A DNA stretch of 64,000 nt from Armatimonadota bacterium. GTDB taxonomy: Bacteria > Sysuimicrobiota > Sysuimicrobiia > Sysuimicrobiales > Humicultoraceae. Made by a program: the position numbers and the translations under genes. Shown here one piece after another: positions 36,881 to 63,570 of the stretch (position 1 is its first letter; each line of letters starts with the position of its first letter). Location: contig JAVHLY010000006.1 of NCBI GenBank assembly GCA_031081585.1, positions 1-64,000 on the forward strand, read 5' to 3'. The notes beneath the pieces were generated by a model, which had not been told where the DNA came from, ran no database searches, and worked only from the letters and a program-made list of their open reading frames with translations.

Positions 36881-38101
36881 GTCCCCGTCCCGTCGGTAGC
36901 GCCTGCGCCCCCGCGGGAGGCCCGGCACCGTGAGCGCTCCCAGCGCCAGGAGGGCCAGGGTGACGGTGAGGGTGCGCTGCAGGCCCACCGCGTCGGCGAC
37001 GGCACCGAAGAGGGTGAGGGTGAGGGCGGCCACGCCCCAGGCCAGACCCATGACGATGCTCGAGGCCAGGCCGGCGTGCTGCGGCAGGACCTCCTGGGCC
37101 ATGACGATGGTCACCGGCGCGGAGAGGTAGATGATCACGCCGGCCACCGGCAGGAGGGCGAGGCGCCACCCCACCGGGGCCTGGAGGTAGAGCGCGAGGA
37201 GCGGCAGCGCGAGCAGGAAGGAGAGGGCCAGCACGGCCCGCCGGCCCCACCGGTCGGCCAGCATGCCGCCCGTGACACCTCCGATGGCGCCGATGCCCCC
37301 GAAGAGGAAGACGGCGGTGCCGCCCATGACCAGCGACACCCCCTGCTGCCGAAGCAGCAGCGGCAGGAAGGTCAGGAACGTCAGCGTCACGATGCTCCGG
37401 ACGACCACGTAGGCCCACAGCAGTCCCAGCGTGCGGCGCTCCAGCGCCAGCGCCGACCCGAGCGTGCCGCGCCGCGCGGGCGGGGCCGTGGGCCAGCGGG
37501 CGACGGCCAGCGCCAGGGCTGCCGCCGCCACCACCCCGGGGAGGGCCGCCGCGCCTGTCGCGTCCAGGCCCTGCCACTGCACGATCGCCGAGATGTACAG
37601 GGGGCCCAGCGCGTAGGCCAGCTCGCCGCCGGCCACGAAGATGGAGAGCCCGGCGGCGCGCCGGTCGCCGCTCAGGTGGCCGGCCAGGGCCGCGCCCTGG
37701 GGGTGGAAGGCGGCGGTGCCGAGGCCGGCGGCGAAGAGCGCCAGGACGAGCACCTGGTACGCCGGCAGGAGCCCCAGCAGCGCCATCGCCGCCACGGTCA
37801 GCGCCGGACCCACGGCGGCCAGCACGCCGGTGCGCAGGCGGTCGGCGAGCAGGCCGAAGAGGGGCTGCGCCAGAGCCGCCGCCGTGTTGAGGATCGTGCC
37901 GAGCAGGCCGGCCAGCGCCAGGCTGAGGTCGAAGCGCGCGACCACCAGCGGCAGGAGCGGGGCCAGCCAGCTCATGTGGAAGTCGTTGAGGAAGTGGTTG
38001 GCCGTCACCCCGAGCAGGCGGCGGAGGTCGGGCGCGCGCGGCGGAGCGACGGGAGGCACGGCTGGAGCCGGACGGGTCGGTGCGAGGGACACGCCGCCCA
38101 T
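36863..38101 (-). CDS. MFS transporter, fosmidomycin-resistance (Fsr)-like
   Basis: 412 residues, twelve predicted membrane helices in two halves. The N-terminal helix segment ANHFLNDFHMSWLAPLLPLVV matches the Fsr branch, where a HFxxDxY/FxG-like motif lies in helix 1. ADRLRTG and ADRWGRRAV are the MFS loop motifs after helices 2 and 8. Fsr relatives export fosmidomycin or other small compounds; the natural substrate here is unknown. The start is uncertain since no clear ribosome site precedes the ATG. Much longer antisense frames upstream are shadows of the dehydrogenase gene. Confidence 0.85.
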   Translation of the reverse strand: MGGVSLAPTRPAPAVPPVAPPRAPDLRRLLGVTANHFLNDFHMSWLAPLLPLVVARFDLSLALAGLLGTILNTAAALAQPLFGLLADRLRTGVLAAVGPALTVAAMALLGLLPAYQVLVLALFAAGLGTAAFHPQGAALAGHLSGDRRAAGLSIFVAGGELAYALGPLYISAIVQWQGLDATGAAALPGVVAAAALALAVARWPTAPPARRGTLGSALALERRTLGLLWAYVVVRSIVTLTFLTFLPLLLRQQGVSLVMGGTAVFLFGGIGAIGGVTGGMLADRWGRRAVLALSFLLALPLLALYLQAPVGWRLALLPVAGVIIYLSAPVTIVMAQEVLPQHAGLASSIVMGLAWGVAALTLTLFGAVADAVGLQRTLTVTLALLALGALTVPGLPRGRRRYRRDGDSEGQP

Positions 38102-38167
38102 TATACCGGAGGTCCCCCACGCGACGAGGAGACGGCGCGCGCGGCCGGCGAATCCCTTGGCGGAACC

Positions 38168-41062
38168 ATGACGACGGAGACGCTCGCCCGACGGCTGCGC
38201 GAAGCCGTCCGCGGGGAGGTGCGCTTCGACGCCTTCTCCCGCGTCCTCTACAGCACCGACGCCTCGATCTACCAGATCCTGCCCATCGGCGTGGTCCTGC
38301 CCCGCGACGCCGACGACATCGCCGCGGCGCTGCGGGTCTGCGCCGACGCCGGCGTGCCGGTGCTCCCGCGCGGGGCCGGCACCAGCCTGGCCGGCCAGAC
38401 GGTCGGGCGGGCCGTGGTGCTGGACTGCTCGCGCCACATGGACCGCATCCTGGAGGTCGACCCGGCGGAGCGGCGGGCGCGGGTCGAGCCCGGCGTCGTG
38501 CAGGACGTCCTGAACCAAGCCGTGGCCCCCTACGGCCTGCGCCTGGGCCCCGACACGGCCACGAGCAACCGGGCCACGCTCGGCGGGATGATCGGCAACA
38601 ACTCCGCGGGCGCCCGCTCCATCGTCTACGGGAAGATGGTCGACCACGTCGAGCGCCTGCGCGTGCTGCTGGCCGACGGCACCGAACTCCACCTGGGGCC
38701 GCTGGACGACGCGGCGCTGGCGGCCGTCCGCGCCCGCCCGTCCCGCGAGGGGCGGCTGGTGGACACCGTCCTGCGCCTGGTCGAGGCCCACCGCGACGAG
38801 ATCGACCGCCGCTACCCCAGGCTCCTGCGGCGCGTCGCCGGCTACAACCTGCCCGAGCTGCTCCTGCGGCCCTTCAACCTGGCCCGCCTGATCGTCGGCT
38901 CCGAAGGGACACTGGGCGTCGTCACCGAGGCCACGGTGCGCCTCGTCCCCCGCCCGCGCCACACCGCCCTGGCCGTGGTCCACTTCGCCGACCTGCTGGA
39001 GGCGCTGGAGGCCACGCAGGTCATCCTGCCCCACGGCCCCTCGGCGGTGGAGCTGCTCGACCGCATGATCCTGGAGATGACCCGCGCCCAGCTGGAGTAC
39101 GCCCGCCGCCTCACCTTCGTGCAGGGGGAGCCGGAGGCGCTGCTCATCGTGGAGTTCAGCGGGGAGCGCCGGGAGGAGGCGCTGGAGCGCCTCGACGCCA
39201 TGACGCGCGCGCTGGCGGCGGCCCGGATGGGGTACGCGGTCGTGCCCGCCGTGGAGGCGGCCGAGCAGGACAACATCTGGCGCGTGCGCAAGGCCGGCCA
39301 GGGGCTGCTGCAGGGGGTGAAGGGCGACACCAAGCCCATCACCTTCGTCGAGGACACGGCGGTCCCGCCGGCGGTCCTGGCCCCCTACATCCGGCGCCTG
39401 CGGGCGATCCTGGAGGCGCACGGCCTGCGCGCGGCCGTCTACGCCCACGCCAGCGTCGGCTGCCTGCACGTCCGCCCCCTCATCAACTTGAAGGACGCGC
39501 AGCAGGTGGCCACGATGCGCGCTGTCGCCGAGGCGGTGGGGGAGCTGGTCCTGGAGTTCGGCGGGGCGATGAGCGGCGAGCACGGGGACGGGTTGGTGCG
39601 CGGCTGGTTCCTGGAGCGCTACTTCGGGCCGGTGGTCTACGACCTCTTCCGCCACATCAAGCGCGCCTTCGACCCGCAGGGGCTGATGAACCCCGGGAAG
39701 ATCGTGGACGCCCCACCCATGACCGAGGACCTGCGCTACGGCCCCGGCTACCGCACGATCGCCGTCCCCACCGTCTTCGACTGGAGCCGCGACGGGGGGT
39801 TCGCCGCCGCGGTGGAGCTGTGCAGCGGCGTGGGCGCCTGCCGCAAGACCACCGACGGCGTCATGTGCCCCTCCTACATGGCGACGCGCGAGGAGGAGCA
39901 CAGCACGCGCGGGCGCGCCAACCTGCTGCGGGCGGTCCTCTCCGGGGTGCTGCCGCCCGAGGAACTCACCGGGCGCCGCCTGTACGAGGCCCTCGACCTC
40001 TGCCTGGAGTGCAAGGGGTGCAAGGCGGAGTGCCCGGCCAACGTGGACATGGCCAAGATGAAGTACGAGTTCCTGGCCCGCTACCACGAGGCGCACGGCA
40101 CGCCCCTGCGCGCCCGCCTCTTCGCCCACGTCCACACCCTGAGCCGCTGGGGCGCCGCGGCGGCCCCCCTCGCCGGGGCGCTGGCCCGCTCCACCCCGGT
40201 GCGCTGGGCGCTGGACCGGTTCCTGGGGATCGACCGGCGGCGGCCGCTGCCGCCGCTGGCCCGCCCCACCTTCGACCGCTGGTGGCACCGGCGCAACGGG
40301 ACCGCTCCGGCGCCGGACGCGCCGCGCGTGGCGCTCTTTGCCGACACCTTCACGCGCTTCACCGTGCCCGAAGTGGGGCGGGCGGCGGTGCAGGTGCTGG
40401 AGGCCCTGGGCTACCGGGTGGAGGTGCCGGCGGTGGGGTGCTGCGGGCGGCCGATGATCAGCAAGGGCCTCCTGCGGGAGGCGCGCCGCGCCGCCGAAGC
40501 CAACGTCCGCCGCCTCCTCCCCTACGCGGCCGCGGGAATCCCCATCGTCGGGCTGGAGCCCTCCTGCCTGCTCACCTTCCGCGACGAGGTGCCGGACCTG
40601 CTGCCGGGCGAGGACACGCGCACCCTGGCCGCGCACGCCGTCCTCATCGACGAGTTCTTGGCCCGCCACCTCGAGGCGTCGCCCGCGGGGCTGGGCGCGG
40701 TGGGGGACGGGCGCCGGGTACTGCTGCACCCGCACTGCCACCAGCGGGCGGCGGTGGGGACCGGGCCTGCTACGGCAGTGCTGCGGGCGGCGGGGTTCGC
40801 GGTGGACGTGGTGGACTCGGGGTGCTGCGGGATGGCCGGCGCCTTCGGGTACGAACGGGAGCACTACGCGCTCTCCATGGCCATCGCCGAACGCCGCCTG
40901 CTCCCGGCGGTGCGCGCGCTCCCCCCCGAGGTGGAGGTGGTGGCGATGGGCATCTCCTGCCGCCAGCAGATCGCCCACGGGACGGGTCGGCGGGCGAAGC
41001 ACCTGGTGGAGGTGCTCGCCGGCGACGCGGGCCGCAGCGCCGTCCGGGCGGCGAGAGCCTAA
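38168..41062 (+). CDS. FAD-linked D-2-hydroxyacid dehydrogenase with Fe-S and CCG domains (GlcD-GlpC fusion)
   Basis: 964 residues. Domain order: PCMH-type FAD-binding domain (about 20-240, with LPRGAGTSLAGQ and GGMIGNNSAGARS), C-terminal FAD oxidase domain with the GEHGDGLVRGWF histidine region (about 460), two 4Fe-4S motifs (CSGVGACRKTTDGVMCPS near 560 and CLECKGCKAECP near 620), then two CCG domains with VGCCGRP and SGCCGMAGAFGYE. This is the YdiJ/Dld-II-like layout, oxidising D-lactate, D-2-hydroxyglutarate or glycolate and passing electrons to a quinone or other carrier. GGCGGA precedes the ATG. It is a single-gene unit divergent from the MFS gene. Confidence 0.93.
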   Translation: MTTETLARRLREAVRGEVRFDAFSRVLYSTDASIYQILPIGVVLPRDADDIAAALRVCADAGVPVLPRGAGTSLAGQTVGRAVVLDCSRHMDRILEVDPAERRARVEPGVVQDVLNQAVAPYGLRLGPDTATSNRATLGGMIGNNSAGARSIVYGKMVDHVERLRVLLADGTELHLGPLDDAALAAVRARPSREGRLVDTVLRLVEAHRDEIDRRYPRLLRRVAGYNLPELLLRPFNLARLIVGSEGTLGVVTEATVRLVPRPRHTALAVVHFADLLEALEATQVILPHGPSAVELLDRMILEMTRAQLEYARRLTFVQGEPEALLIVEFSGERREEALERLDAMTRALAAARMGYAVVPAVEAAEQDNIWRVRKAGQGLLQGVKGDTKPITFVEDTAVPPAVLAPYIRRLRAILEAHGLRAAVYAHASVGCLHVRPLINLKDAQQVATMRAVAEAVGELVLEFGGAMSGEHGDGLVRGWFLERYFGPVVYDLFRHIKRAFDPQGLMNPGKIVDAPPMTEDLRYGPGYRTIAVPTVFDWSRDGGFAAAVELCSGVGACRKTTDGVMCPSYMATREEEHSTRGRANLLRAVLSGVLPPEELTGRRLYEALDLCLECKGCKAECPANVDMAKMKYEFLARYHEAHGTPLRARLFAHVHTLSRWGAAAAPLAGALARSTPVRWALDRFLGIDRRRPLPPLARPTFDRWWHRRNGTAPAPDAPRVALFADTFTRFTVPEVGRAAVQVLEALGYRVEVPAVGCCGRPMISKGLLREARRAAEANVRRLLPYAAAGIPIVGLEPSCLLTFRDEVPDLLPGEDTRTLAAHAVLIDEFLARHLEASPAGLGAVGDGRRVLLHPHCHQRAAVGTGPATAVLRAAGFAVDVVDSGCCGMAGAFGYEREHYALSMAIAERRLLPAVRALPPEVEVVAMGISCRQQIAHGTGRRAKHLVEVLAGDAGRSAVRAARA

Positions 41063-46776: not shown

Positions 46777-47406
46777 TCATGTGGCCTGCACCGCAGGCGC
46801 CACCGCCTCGAGCAGCGCCCGCACGCCCGGCGCCTTGAGCCGCAGGCTCACCCGGTTTACCACCAACCGGGCGGTGGAGCGGAAGACCTCGGCCACCTCG
46901 ACCAGGCGGTTCGCCCGCAGCGTGCGACCGGTCATCACCAGGTCGACGATGGCGTCCGCCAGGCCCACCTGCGGGGCCAGCTCCAGCGCCCCGTGCAGGA
47001 CGATGACCTCCACCGGACGGCGGGCCTGCTCGAAGAACCGCGCCGTCACGCGCGGGTAGCGGGTGGCCACGCGCAGCGGGGCCGAGCCGGCGAGCAGCGC
47101 CTCCCGGCCGGCCGGCACCGCCACCACAGCCCGGCAGGCGCCGAACCCCAGGTCGGCCAGCTCGTAGACGTCGGCCTCCTGCTCGAGGAGCAGGTCCTGG
47201 CCGACGATGCCCGCGTCGGCCGCGCCGTGCTCCACGTACGTGAGGATGTCGAGCGGCTTGGCCACGAGGATGCGCCCGCCCTCCGGCCCCGGCAGGACGA
47301 GGGCGCGCTCGGGCGGCGGGGCGTCGAGCAGCCGGAGCCGCTGCAGCAGCGCCACGGCCTCGGGGAAGAGGCGGCCGGTGGGGACGGCCAGCGTCAGTGG
47401 CTCCAC
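46777..47406 (-). CDS. hisG: ATP phosphoribosyltransferase, short form
   Basis: 209 residues from a GTG with GGAGGTGGGAG just upstream, overlapping hisZ by 13 bases. It lacks the C-terminal regulatory domain of long HisG, so it needs HisZ, which is encoded directly upstream. LAVPTGRLFPEAVALL, the GIVGQDLLLEQ loop and the PRPP-binding DAIVDLVMTGRTLRANRL are present. It performs the first committed step of histidine synthesis. Confidence 0.96.
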   Translation of the reverse strand: MEPLTLAVPTGRLFPEAVALLQRLRLLDAPPPERALVLPGPEGGRILVAKPLDILTYVEHGAADAGIVGQDLLLEQEADVYELADLGFGACRAVVAVPAGREALLAGSAPLRVATRYPRVTARFFEQARRPVEVIVLHGALELAPQVGLADAIVDLVMTGRTLRANRLVEVAEVFRSTARLVVNRVSLRLKAPGVRALLEAVAPAVQAT

Positions 47407-48701
47407 GCTCCCACCTCCGGACCCCCGGCCACCTGGTGGGCGTCCGCGGCGGCCACCACGTCGGCGGCCCCTGCCACCGGCACGCGCCGCTCGACGGTGG
47501 GACCGTCGCCGCGGAGCCGGCGCACGCGAGCACCGTCGCCGTCCACCCACATCACCCAGCGCGCGCCTTCGCGCCCGGCCCGGTCCAGGGTCTTCTCCCA
47601 GGAGCGGCCCGGCTCGGCGATGACGGCGGCCCCGGCCTCGCGCAGGCCGCGGGCCAGGCGCAACGCGGAGGCGCGCGCCGTCGGTTCCGCCCAGGCGATG
47701 AGGACGTCCAGCTCCTCCTCGCCGTCCGCGACGAGGGCCACCACGCGGTCGACGCCCAGGGCGAACCCCGTCGCCGGGGCAGGGGTCCCGAAGGCGGCCA
47801 GGAGGCCATCGTACCGCCCGCCGCCGAGCAGCGGGTAGCCCGAGCCGGCCCCGTAGCCCTCGAAGACGACGCCGGTGTAGTAGCTGAAGTCCCGGATGAT
47901 GCTGAGGTCGACCGCCGCCGCCTCGCCCACACCGTGCTCCTCCAGCCGGCCCAGCAGCGCCTCGAGCCCCGCGAGCGCGGCCTCCCCGCGTTCCGTGCGC
48001 ACCACCGCCCGCGCCGCCGCCAGGGCGTCACCCCCCTGCAGCAGCGGCAGCTCGCGAAGGAACGCGCCGAGGTGCCGGTCGGGGACCGTCGTCTCGATGC
48101 CGGCGAACTGCTTGCGGTAGAGACGGGCCACGAGCGCGTCCCGCGTCTCCGGGGGCAGCGCGCCCAGGGCGTCGTCCAGGAAGCCGATGTGGCCCACCGT
48201 CACGACCGGCCGGGCGATGCCGGCGCGCCGCAGCGCCTCCACGGCCAGCGCGATCACCTCGGCGTCCGCGTCTACGCCGTCCTCGCCCAGGCGCTCGACC
48301 CCGGCCTGCGTGAACTCCCGCAGCCGCCCCCGCCCCTCCTCCTGCTCCCGGTAGACCGGCGCCACGTAGGCCAGGCGCAGCGGCCCGGCGGCATCCGGCA
48401 GGAGACGGGTGGCGGCCAGCCGGGCGATGGAGACGGTCAGGTCGGGGCGCAGGGCCAGCAGCTCCCCCCGCCGGCCGACCACCTTGAAGAGGCGGTCCTG
48501 GATCCCGGGCCCGCCGCCGTGGACGAGCGTCTCCAGGTACTCCAGCGCGGGGGTGAGGACCTCGCGGTAGCCCCAGGCGCGGAAGGTGCCCCGCAGGCGG
48601 CCGACCACCCGCAGGTGGCGGGCCGCCTCGGCGGGGGCCAGGTCGCGCAGGCCGCGGGGCAGCGCGGCCCAGCGCTGGCGGGGGCCGGTGCGCAGGCGCA
48701 G
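47394..48701 (-). CDS. hisZ: ATP phosphoribosyltransferase regulatory subunit, probable CTG start
   Basis: 435 residues if started at the CTG at 48701. The open frame begins after a TAA at 48717-48719, and no ATG, GTG or TTG occurs until the GTG at 48608. Starting there would lose ALPRGLRDLAPAEA, the conserved N-terminal segment of the family. AAAGGAG lies 10 bases before the CTG. HisRS-like catalytic core: GYREVLTPALEYLE, RPDLTVSIARLAA, YREQEEGRGRLREFTQAGVE and YYTGVVFEGYG, LLGGGRYDGLL. HisZ regulates short HisG and replaces its missing domain. First gene of the his operon. Confidence 0.88.
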   Translation of the reverse strand: MRLRTGPRQRWAALPRGLRDLAPAEAARHLRVVGRLRGTFRAWGYREVLTPALEYLETLVHGGGPGIQDRLFKVVGRRGELLALRPDLTVSIARLAATRLLPDAAGPLRLAYVAPVYREQEEGRGRLREFTQAGVERLGEDGVDADAEVIALAVEALRRAGIARPVVTVGHIGFLDDALGALPPETRDALVARLYRKQFAGIETTVPDRHLGAFLRELPLLQGGDALAAARAVVRTERGEAALAGLEALLGRLEEHGVGEAAAVDLSIIRDFSYYTGVVFEGYGAGSGYPLLGGGRYDGLLAAFGTPAPATGFALGVDRVVALVADGEEELDVLIAWAEPTARASALRLARGLREAGAAVIAEPGRSWEKTLDRAGREGARWVMWVDGDGARVRRLRGDGPTVERRVPVAGAADVVAAADAHQVAGGPEVGAWSH

Positions 48702-48717
48702 CGAGACTTCACTCCTT

Positions 48718-48735
48718 TAGCAAGTTAAATTGCTA
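48718..48735. promoter_or_regulatory. Perfect palindrome at the 5' end of the his operon
   Basis: TAGCAA-GTTAAA-TTGCTA is a perfect 6+6 inverted repeat in an AT-rich island just before the hisZ ribosome site. A third half-site (AGCAA, 48740-48744) forms an overlapping TTGCT-n5-AGCAA repeat. A YerC/TrpR-family gene lies about 1.2 kb away; YerC-type proteins are reported to regulate his genes in Firmicutes. This makes it a strong candidate operator. A leftward -35/-10 pair (TTGCTT-17-GCTAAA) overlaps it but is poor. Confidence 0.68.
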
Positions 48736-48822
48736 CCGAAGCAAACTGCCGTTGAGGATACCCCGGCGGTGGCCGGCACGTCAACCCGGTGGGGCGGCAG
48801 GGCGGCCGCGGCGCGAGGTCGG

Positions 48823-49656
48823 CTAACCGACGCGCTCGGTCGTCGGGCGCAGCTCCCGGAGGGTGGGCGGGCGGAAGTAGGCCCACCCCACGAGCCCGAG
48901 GTAGCCCCCGTAGGCCACGACCTCCACCAGCGAGGGGTCGCCGTTGTAGCCGAAGAGCGCGGCCAGGAAACTCCCCAAGAGGGACCGTTCGTCCAGCACG
49001 GCGTTCGTGTTCCAGACGGGCTCCACGAGCGCCGGTACCAGGCCGGCCTCGTGGAACTCGTGAAGGCCGTGGGCGAGCAACCCGGCCGCGAAGAGGAGCA
49101 GCAGGATGCTGGTGACGTTGAAGAACGCCCGCAGGTTCAGCCGGTAGGTGCCGCGGTAGAGCAGGTAGCCCAGCACCGCCGCGGCCGCGAGGCCGAGCCC
49201 TCCGCCCAGCAGCGCCGCGGAGGCCGAGGCGGTCGTGATCGCCGCGATCATGAAGAGGACGGTCTCGAGCCCTTCCCGCCCCACCGCGACGAAGGCCAGC
49301 AGGCCCAGCGCCCACAGGGAGCCGGATTCCAGCGCCGTCTGCACCTGGGCCTGCAGGTGCGCCCGGATGCCGATGGCCTGACGCCGCATCCAGAAGATCA
49401 TGTAGGCGAGGACGCCCGCGGCCGCCACCATGGTAGCGCCCTCGAAGATCTCCTCGGCGTGCCCCTCCAGGCCCCCAGCCGTGAGGAAGATCGCTACGCC
49501 GGCGGCCACGCTGAGCACGATGCTCGACACGGTCCCCAGCCAGACGGCGCCCGCCTTGTCCCGGTGTCCGGTCCTGGCCAGGTAGGCCAGGATGATGCCG
49601 AGGATCAGCGCCGCTTCCAGACCCTCCCGCAGGGTGATCAGCAGAGACGAAGCCAT
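48823..49656 (-). CDS. FTR1/EfeU-family high-affinity iron permease
   Basis: 277 residues, ATG with GGAGAGGAG upstream. About seven membrane spans. Both REGLE iron-binding motifs are present: LREGLEAAL (10-14) and GREGLETVLF (127-131). The family imports iron across the cytoplasmic membrane, usually with EfeO and the EfeB peroxidase or a multicopper oxidase. No such partner is encoded here. It may act alone or use partners elsewhere. An inverted-repeat cluster lies upstream at 49766-49797. Confidence 0.92.
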   Translation of the reverse strand: MASSLLITLREGLEAALILGIILAYLARTGHRDKAGAVWLGTVSSIVLSVAAGVAIFLTAGGLEGHAEEIFEGATMVAAAGVLAYMIFWMRRQAIGIRAHLQAQVQTALESGSLWALGLLAFVAVGREGLETVLFMIAAITTASASAALLGGGLGLAAAAVLGYLLYRGTYRLNLRAFFNVTSILLLLFAAGLLAHGLHEFHEAGLVPALVEPVWNTNAVLDERSLLGSFLAALFGYNGDPSLVEVVAYGGYLGLVGWAYFRPPTLRELRPTTERVG

Positions 49657-49877: not shown

Positions 49878-50216
49878 TCAACCGCGGCCCCCCCGCCCCG
49901 GGCGCACACCCAGACGGGTGAGCACCAGGCGGTAGCCGTCGGCGCCGTACTCCAGGAAGCGGCGCACACGGCTGATGGTGGCGCTGCTGGCCCCCGTGCG
50001 CGCCGCCACCTCCTGGTAGGTCCGTCCCTCGAAGAGGAGGCGGGCGATCTCCAGGCGCTGCGCCATCGCCTTGAACTCGCCGATGGTGGCGACGTCCTCG
50101 AAGAACCGGTAGCACTCCTCCACGGAGGTGAGGGTGAGCACCGCCTGGCAGAACCGGTCGGCCAGCGGGTCCTTCAGGCGCGGGTTGATGGGACGCCGGG
50201 GGCGTGGCACGGCCAT
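49878..50216 (-). CDS. YerC/YecD-type TrpR-family regulator (HisR-like)
   Basis: 112 residues. The TrpR/YerC helix-turn-helix fold is visible: DRFCQAVLTLTSVEECYRFFEDVATIGEFKAMAQRLEIARLLFEGRTYQEVAARTGASSATISRVRRFLEYG, given here in family order at about 20-92. The recognition helix is ASSATISRV. In Firmicutes, proteins of this type (YerC/HisR) are linked to histidine gene control. Here the gene lies on the same strand upstream of ftr1 and the his operon, which begins with a perfect palindrome. GGGGAAG precedes the ATG. The C-terminus is glycine- and arginine-rich. Confidence 0.88.
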   Translation of the reverse strand: MAVPRPRRPINPRLKDPLADRFCQAVLTLTSVEECYRFFEDVATIGEFKAMAQRLEIARLLFEGRTYQEVAARTGASSATISRVRRFLEYGADGYRLVLTRLGVRPGRGGRG

Positions 50217-61695: not shown

Positions 61696-62592
61696 TCAGG
61701 CCCGCAGGACCGTGCGCGGGTCGAGCGCGTCGCGCAGCCCGTCCCCGAGTAGGTTGAAGGCCATCACCGCCAGGAAGATCGCCAGCCCCGGGAAGGTGGC
61801 GATGAACCAGTAGGAGAGCAGGTAGGTCTGCCCTTCACCCAGCATTGTCCCCCACTCCGGGGTGGGCGGCCGGACGCCCAGGCCGAGGAAGCCCAACCCG
61901 GCGGCCGTCAGGATGGCGGTGCCCAGCTGGAGCGTGGACTGGACGATCACGGGCGCGACCGAGTTGGGCAGCACGTGCCGCGCCAGGACCCGCCACTCGG
62001 GAGCGCCGAGCGCCCGGGCCGCCTCGATGAACGTCTCCTCCCGCAGGGAGAGGGTGACCCCCCGCACCAGCCGGACGTAGACGGGGACCGCCGCCACCGC
62101 CACCGAGACCACGACGTTCGTCACCCCGACCCCCAGCACGGCGATGAGGGTGAGGGCCAGGAGGAAGCCGGGGAAGGCCAGGAGCAGGTCGATGATGCGC
62201 TGGACCGCCATGTCTACCATGCCGCCGAAGTAGCCCGAGACCAGGCCGATGGGCACACCCACCGCAGCAGCCAGGAGCACGGCGAGCAGGCCGATGAGCA
62301 GCGAGAGGCGTCCGCCATAGGCGACCCGGGTGAGGATGTCGCGGCCGAGCTGGTCGGTCCCCATCGGGTGGGGCCACGACGGCGGCTGGAGTACCCGGGT
62401 GAAGTCGGCCTCGTTGGGGTCGGCGGGCAGCACCACTGGCGCCAGGACAGACGCGCCGAAGAGGCCCAGCAGGATGACGAGCCCGGCCACCGCCGTGCGC
62501 CGGCGCCGCAGCCTGACCCAGGCTCCCCGGGCCGGAGCGGGACGCACCAGCAGCAGGGGGAGGTCACTCGTAGCGAATCCGCGGGTCGACAT
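61696..62592 (-). CDS. Dipeptide/oligopeptide ABC transporter permease (DppC type), system 2
   Basis: 298 residues if started at the ATG that overlaps the DppB-type gene by 29 bases; a GTG 15 codons later is possible. In system 1 the matching junction reads CTATGAGTGA, while here it is CTACGAGTGA, so the usual start codon is lost by one base. The body is a normal DppC: MGTDQLGRDILTRVAYGGRLSL and the EAA loop EAARALGAPEWRVLARHVLPN. About 6 membrane spans. Confidence 0.9.
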   Translation of the reverse strand: MSTRGFATSDLPLLLVRPAPARGAWVRLRRRRTAVAGLVILLGLFGASVLAPVVLPADPNEADFTRVLQPPSWPHPMGTDQLGRDILTRVAYGGRLSLLIGLLAVLLAAAVGVPIGLVSGYFGGMVDMAVQRIIDLLLAFPGFLLALTLIAVLGVGVTNVVVSVAVAAVPVYVRLVRGVTLSLREETFIEAARALGAPEWRVLARHVLPNSVAPVIVQSTLQLGTAILTAAGLGFLGLGVRPPTPEWGTMLGEGQTYLLSYWFIATFPGLAIFLAVMAFNLLGDGLRDALDPRTVLRA

Positions 62593-63484
62593 AGGCGTAG
62601 AGCACGTCCACGGTTAGGTTGACCAGGACGAAGGCGAGGGCGAAGAGGAGCACGATCCCCTGGATGACCGGATAGTCCCGCGCAGTGATCGCCGAGACCA
62701 GCAGCCGGCCGATCCCCGGCCAGGCGAAGGTGGTCTCCGTGAGCACGGCACCGCCGAGGAGCGCACCGAACTGGAGGCCGACGACCGTGATCACCGGGAT
62801 GAGGGCGTTGCGCAGCGCGTGCCGCGTCACCACCTGCCGCGGCGGGAGTCCCTTGGCCCGGGCGGTGCGCACAAAGTCCATGCCCAGGGTCTCCAGCAGG
62901 CTGCCGCGCGTCATGCGGGCGATGATGGCGGTGGAGAAGGCGGCCAGGGTCAGCGACGGGAGGATCAGGTGGGCCGGTCCGCCGTAGCCGCCTGCGGGCA
63001 GCCAGCGCAGCCGCACGGCGAACAGCAGCATGAGCATGATCCCCAGCCAGAAGACCGGGACGGAGACGCCGACGAGTGCCGCCACCATCACCGCGTAGTC
63101 CAGCGGCGAGTTGGCGGTGGTGGCGGAGACGATCCCGGCGACCAGGCCGAAGAGCGTGGCCAGCGCCGTGCTGGTCACCGCCAGGGTCACCGTGGCCCGC
63201 AGCCGGCTGCCGATCTCCGCCGCCACCGGCGTGCGAGTGGCGGCGGAGATCCCGAGGTCGCCCCGCAGGGCCGCGCCCAGGAAGCGCAGGTACTGCTCGT
63301 GCAGGGGCCGGTGGAGGCCCAGCTCCACGCGCAGCCGCGCCACCTCCTCCTCCGTCGCCAGCAGACCGGCGATGAGACGGGCTGGGTCGCCGGGGATGAG
63401 CCGGACCATGAGGAAGATGACGACAGTGACGCCGAGCAGCGTCGGCACCGCGTAGAGCAGGCGGCGGAGGATGTACCGACCCAG
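62564..63484 (-). CDS. Dipeptide/oligopeptide ABC transporter permease (DppB type), system 2, CTG start
   Basis: 306 residues from the CTG at 63484, identical in length to the system 1 DppB. The frame is closed by a TGA 5 codons upstream and has no ATG, GTG or TTG before the GTG at 63448. The GTG would remove GRYILRRLLYA, which aligns with WRYIVKRLLLT of system 1. GAGGGGG lies 7 bases before the CTG. The rest is a typical DppB: VPTLLGVTVVIFLMVRLIPGDP and FLGAALRGDLGIS, with the loop RTARAKGLPPRQVVTRHALRN. Confidence 0.9.
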   Translation of the reverse strand: MGRYILRRLLYAVPTLLGVTVVIFLMVRLIPGDPARLIAGLLATEEEVARLRVELGLHRPLHEQYLRFLGAALRGDLGISAATRTPVAAEIGSRLRATVTLAVTSTALATLFGLVAGIVSATTANSPLDYAVMVAALVGVSVPVFWLGIMLMLLFAVRLRWLPAGGYGGPAHLILPSLTLAAFSTAIIARMTRGSLLETLGMDFVRTARAKGLPPRQVVTRHALRNALIPVITVVGLQFGALLGGAVLTETTFAWPGIGRLLVSAITARDYPVIQGIVLLFALAFVLVNLTVDVLYAYVDPRIRYE

Positions 63485-63570
63485 GACCGGTCCCCCTCAT
63501 GCCCGGACGGTGCGGGAAGGCGGGCCGCGGCGGCGCCCGCGAACCGACTGTCGCGGTGGCGTCCGGGCGG

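Follow-up and report, generated by a model that had tools for sequence, protein, structure and literature searches.

The hisZ gene of this Armatimonadota bacterium, which encodes the regulatory subunit of ATP phosphoribosyltransferase, raises the question at which codon its translation begins. The gene lies on the minus strand of a 64,000-nucleotide stretch of DNA, which was analysed as a whole and is referred to as the window. Between the in-frame stop codon that closes the hisZ frame upstream (TAA, 48719-48717) and the GTG at 48608, the frame contains no ATG, GTG or TTG. The best reading, which is considered very probable, is that hisZ begins at the CTG at 48701. CTG start codons are already known, though rare, and hisZ is a new example of them.

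The hisZ frame and its proposed CTG start

The following features define the 5' region of the gene:
47394-48701, minus strand: hisZ (ATP phosphoribosyltransferase regulatory subunit, TIGR00443), 435 codons counted from the CTG
48699-48701, minus strand: CTG, proposed hisZ start codon, with ATG or GTG at the same codon in relatives
48712-48718, minus strand: Shine-Dalgarno sequence AAAGGAG, followed by a 10-nt spacer (48711-48702) to the CTG
48717-48719, minus strand: in-frame TAA closing the hisZ frame upstream
48606-48608, minus strand: GTG, first standard start codon in the hisZ frame (residue 32), rejected as start

HisZ matched TIGR00443 with 299.7 and 298.5 bits in two profile runs, which is above the cut-off of 271.65, and position 1 of the profile corresponds to residue 19 of the protein, counted from the CTG. 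After the TAA, the frame reads AGG AGT GAA GTC TCG CTG CGC CTG CGC ACC. A preliminary description of the locus had reported an ideal AAAGGAG 10 bases before a CTG and a conserved segment, ALPRGLRDL, upstream of the first GTG; both are found as described, with ALPRGLRDL forming residues 13-21. The AAAGGAG by itself is unremarkable (one occurrence in the window, 1.17 expected), and AAAGGAG-N10-CTG occurs once, with 0.01 expected. CTG makes up 7.5% of the codons in this genome, so that finding a CTG at any one codon is not unusual in itself.

Matches to hisZ were found in 59 of 61 genomes, the own genome included, and the DNA was compared for the matches of the best 29 relatives (L005-L033). The alignment was anchored on a conserved aromatic residue, W11 in this genome and Tyr in L014, which could be placed in 27 of the 29 (not in L015 and L029). 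In ten of these 27 (L005, L006, L008-L014, L017), an ATG or GTG is located exactly 10 codons before the anchor, that is, at the codon of the CTG; in the other 17, the nearest standard start lies at a different distance, and none of the 27 alignable relatives has a CTG at this codon. All seven hisZ loci of the same family among the best 29 (G001, G002, G003, G004, G006, G008, G009) carry ATG or GTG there; G005, G007 and G010 of this family are outside the count, having only weaker matches, perhaps to HisS. No second genome of the same genus is among the relatives listed.

The residues that follow the proposed start are also conserved. Residue 2 is Arg and residue 3 is Leu, Val or Ile in all 11 sequences (the ten relatives and this genome, G000), residue 4 is Arg in nine of them, and P15, G17 and D20 are invariant. 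Over codons 2-31, the 55 pairs differ 606, 589 and 908 times at codon positions 1, 2 and 3, respectively, and comparison of this genome with the ten relatives alone yields 121, 118 and 150 differences, a weaker third-position excess. Inspection by eye revealed AAAGGAG 8-12 nt before the ATG or GTG in L005, L009, L011, L012 and L013, GGAGGG in L008 and AAGGAG in L010, and no such clear Shine-Dalgarno sequence in L006, L014 and L017. The probable CTG start proposed for hisZ in the preliminary description is thus well supported by the homology of its codon to the ATG and GTG starts of relatives.

Four other explanations have to be weighed. An assembly or sequencing error at the initial C of the CTG, with GTG or ATG as the true start, is improbable. 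The genome is represented by one assembly of 66 contigs, and likely pieces of broken genes were encountered in the sample described below (L103, L077); however, hisZ, mltG and tyrA would each have to carry an independent substitution error at the start codon. Initiation at a different non-standard codon nearby, GTC 48707 or CTG 48695, is very improbable: GTC is documented as the start codon of Streptomyces sigR (PMC5472188), but the AAAGGAG would be spaced 4 nt from this GTC and 16 nt from CTG 48695, and the starts of the relatives coincide with the codon of CTG 48701 instead. Even less credence can be given to a shorter HisZ from GTG 48608, an outcome that the preliminary description had allowed for. 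This is the first in-frame ATG, GTG or TTG, but the resulting protein would lack residues 19-31, which match the beginning of the TIGR00443 profile, and the invariant P15, G17 and D20. The out-of-frame GTG at 48712-48710, which opens an overlapping frame of 91 codons and would have to be joined to hisZ by a base-count error or a frameshift, is the least plausible start of all, as it overlaps the Shine-Dalgarno sequence itself and is absent at this position from the five relatives that share the AAAGGAG.

Regulatory setting and proposed route of initiation

The surroundings of the proposed CTG start contain four further features:
48716-48729, minus strand: TTTA-N6-TAAA palindrome that overlaps the hisZ Shine-Dalgarno sequence (putative HisR operator)
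48755-48784, minus strand: promoter-like TTGACG-N18-TATCCT
49878-50216, minus strand: YerC/HisR-type regulator of the TrpR family (PF01371; TIGR02531, 127 bits, cut-off 42.2)
46777-47406, minus strand: hisG, with a GTG start (presumed position), overlapping the last hisZ codons (TIGR00070, 182.3 bits, cut-off 75.75)

The palindrome occurs once in the window and in none of 100 shuffles; among the 27 relatives, it is exact in 21, has one mismatch in four and is absent in two. Its sequence is identical to the core of cacTTTAnnnnnnTAAAgtg, the common HisR consensus given in PMC9413887. The AAAGGAG shares bases with this core, and the form of the site may therefore have two causes. The product of the YerC/HisR-type gene is a candidate ligand of the operator. 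A TTTA-N6-TAAA sequence before the his genes and a HisR-type gene are both present, as in HisR-regulated his operons, and the neighbouring hisG, which overlaps the end of hisZ, is in line with the assignment to the HisZ family. A search of 48400-49000 against Rfam at gathering scores gave no family match and no known RNA leader. The promoter-like sequence was found once in 48500-49000 (shuffle mean 0.0); with a promoter at 48784-48755, the hisZ mRNA would be leadered, and the leader is estimated at about 47 nt.

We infer that hisZ is translated from CTG 48701 via the ordinary Shine-Dalgarno route. The promoter-like site, 54-83 nt upstream of the CTG, would give rise to a leadered hisZ mRNA, on which the AAAGGAG would position the 30S subunit, and the ordinary initiator tRNA with its CAU anticodon would take the CUG with a weak first-position pair, presumably at a reduced rate. 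If the CAU initiator tRNA reads CUG, HisZ should start with formyl-methionine. The ancestral hisZ start was probably GTG or ATG, of which the first base changed. Through the overlap of hisG with the end of hisZ, poor initiation at hisZ might in turn reduce the coupled translation of hisG.

A different arrangement was observed in three genomes of one genus (L028, L030, L031), in which the stretch from the operator to the conserved core of hisZ is devoid of ATG, GTG and TTG, and ATA AAG comes after the operator. The Trp is preceded by the nearest GTG at a distance of 15-19 codons, and a -10-like sequence (by eye) lies close to this GTG, as if hisZ translation were leaderless there and ran through the operator.

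CTG candidates elsewhere in the genome

The preliminary description had mentioned a second CTG candidate in the window and had taken it as a sign that non-standard initiation might be tolerated in this genome. This candidate exists, but it is ambiguous:
62564-63484, minus strand: DppB-type ABC permease, no standard start in frame, CTG 63484 as candidate start

One related permease has ATG at the position of CTG 63484 (L041) and three have TTG (L044-L046), while those of L039, L040, L042, L043 and L050 have an ATG three or four codons earlier. An ATG at 63500 is out of frame with the permease, across a run of five G. With one base removed, the sequence would resemble L039, and the candidate may thus be due to a one-base length error.

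A genome-wide count of genes that need a CTG, which had also been proposed, was carried out on a sample of 864 kb of this genome (the window and 40 further stretches), in which our own simple codon-usage gene finder predicted 710 genes. In nine of these, the coding signal reached far upstream beyond the first standard start: hisZ, mltG (L079), tyrA (L082), ksgA (L078), rlmB (L085), an ABC ATPase gene (L095), the DppB-type permease gene and the likely fragments L077 and L103. For mltG, an ATG or GTG was found at the codon of CTG 6446 (L079) in six of 20 relatives, four of which aligned directly (L219, L221, L222, L227) and two via ungapped extension (L224, L228). For tyrA, an ATG or GTG lies one codon before CTG 9919 (L082) in six of 20 relatives (in L209 by an alignment that begins at query residue 1, and in L200, L207, L210, L212 and L213 via ungapped extension). 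The remaining mltG and tyrA relatives start elsewhere. The rule recovered 134 of 561 genes of G000 when their start was turned into CTG, and the sensitivity-corrected share of CTG starts, calculated from three genes in 710, is about 1.8% (0.4-5.2%), a value inflated by the inclusion of hisZ as the given case. TTG was heuristically assigned to 17 of 671 starts.

A second rule flagged 11 of 668 genes at a coding threshold of 3, missing hisZ and tyrA, and 21 of 668 at a threshold of 2. In its loosened form, it added two genes, which may be CTG starts and constitute weaker cases. In the biotin-carboxylase-like gene (L078), CTG 7481 overlaps the preceding stop codon as CTGA, and the next residue corresponds to position 2 of the NF006367 profile, with scores below the curated cut-offs shown. 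In cysS (L085), the CTG likewise forms a CTGA overlap with the stop codon of the preceding gene, position 1 of the TIGR00435 profile is the CTG codon, and an ATT directly precedes it. By eye, the counterparts in G004 start upstream of the CTG position, the biotin-carboxylase-like gene by one codon (GTG) and cysS by two (ATG).

Among genes of G000 without a standard start, a Shine-Dalgarno sequence preceded CTG in eight of 22 cases and other codons in 48 of 224 (p = 0.096). The corresponding values were 1/4 and 1/28 in G004, 0/4 and 9/87 in G020, and 3/12 and 32/263 in G001, and the preference for CTG was not significant in any of the four genomes. The idea of genome-wide tolerance gains from mltG and tyrA, with starts of relatives within one codon, and to a lesser degree from the biotin-carboxylase-like gene and cysS, but few genes are involved and the generic test was not significant.

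Three further candidates were rejected as CTG cases: ksgA, whose relatives keep sequence further upstream; the open reading frame 36881-41062, the first part of which has no family match while the rest is an FAD-oxidase gene starting later, and which is read as a shadow frame; and hisG of G001, which has a GTG and an ATG in frame upstream. Two genes may point to other codons. The ABC transporter ATPase gene (L095, 914-2020) lacks a standard start in the vicinity of the 5' end of its coding region, with an ACG behind AGGAG as candidate, and rlmB (L085, 2393-3316) has none before the conserved region, with an ATC behind GGAGGAG as a possible start. A contig scan of the genome gave four loci with 40-42% identity, which lie outside the analysis.

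Application of the same upstream-coding rule to relatives flagged 0 of 306 genes in G004, two of 321 in G020 and ten of 325 in G001, 40 kb of the 400-kb G001 sample being N. The flagged genes include much noise as well as infC, identified by eye in L164 and starting at ATC. The rule recovered 36 of 247 (G004), 67 of 270 (G020) and 60 of 251 genes (G001) with starts turned into CTG, and at this sensitivity the samples are too small to set G000 apart from its relatives. A CTG start is also possible for a trmH-like gene of G001 (L164, 15085-16566) and for gatA of G020 (L138, 6292-8067).

It is conceivable, but rather doubtful, that CTG is a regular fourth start codon in this lineage, serving some 2% of genes, a frequency close to that of TTG, and found in genes of housekeeping type (cysS, tyrA, mltG and hisZ, for example), with IF3 discrimination still in place. 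The odds of this are lowered by the G004 counterparts of cysS and the biotin-carboxylase-like gene, which start at other codons, and by the scores of the latter gene under the cut-offs; generalisation to the genome has some support, drawn from few genes. According to PMC5622118, 2 of 61,358 ancestral AUG, 1 of 5,080 GUG and 1 of 2,468 UUG starts became CUG, so that the published rates of change to CUG range from about 3 in 10^5 (from AUG) to 4 in 10^4 (from UUG); these counts depend on annotations, which may under-report CTG. The possible genome-wide use of CTG (about 2%, with a wide interval) is the interesting part of these findings: if true, it would offer a natural case for testing how much initiation fidelity can be loosened. 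Gene finders restricted to ATG, GTG and TTG would truncate proteins with CTG starts or miss their starts.

Initiation machinery and comparison with known systems

Using ARAGORN on 30 of 46 tRNA matches, three CAU tRNAs were read, one of which (L259) carries the three initiator G-C pairs (by eye). The gene infC, encoding IF3, has a single match in the genome and most likely starts at an ATC (L269, 2005-2007) behind GGAGGG; infC of G001 seems to start at ATC, too. ATC-type infC starts are described as repressed by IF3 (PMC5472188), and the retention of the ATC start by infC suggests that codon discrimination is probably intact. A cryo-EM study reports a tRNAfMet variant whose CAU anticodon reads CUG in the normal frame, with a weak first pair (PMC11497404). 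N-terminomics of E. coli covered 688 annotated starts, namely 628 ATG, 50 GTG and 10 TTG (PMC13245402), and a mycobacterial selection showed no CTG enrichment at the leadered start position (PMC4633059).

In the infC genes described in PMC5472188, which start at ATT or ATC, a conserved gene likewise has a 5' end without ATG, GTG or TTG, and the Shine-Dalgarno sequence places the start. In contrast to hisZ, however, the odd codon of infC is a documented autoregulatory device. The sigR gene of Streptomyces, starting at GTC, is comparable to hisZ in that each stands first in two overlapping, probably coupled genes and has a non-standard start; the sigR codon was shown to be repressed by IF3 and has a known purpose (PMC5472188), whereas the CTG of hisZ is a proposed start. 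With HisR-regulated his operons as described in PMC9413887, the locus shares the nearby TrpR-family gene and the TTTA-N6-TAAA sequence before the his genes, but the putative operator of hisZ differs from theirs in that it overlaps the Shine-Dalgarno sequence.
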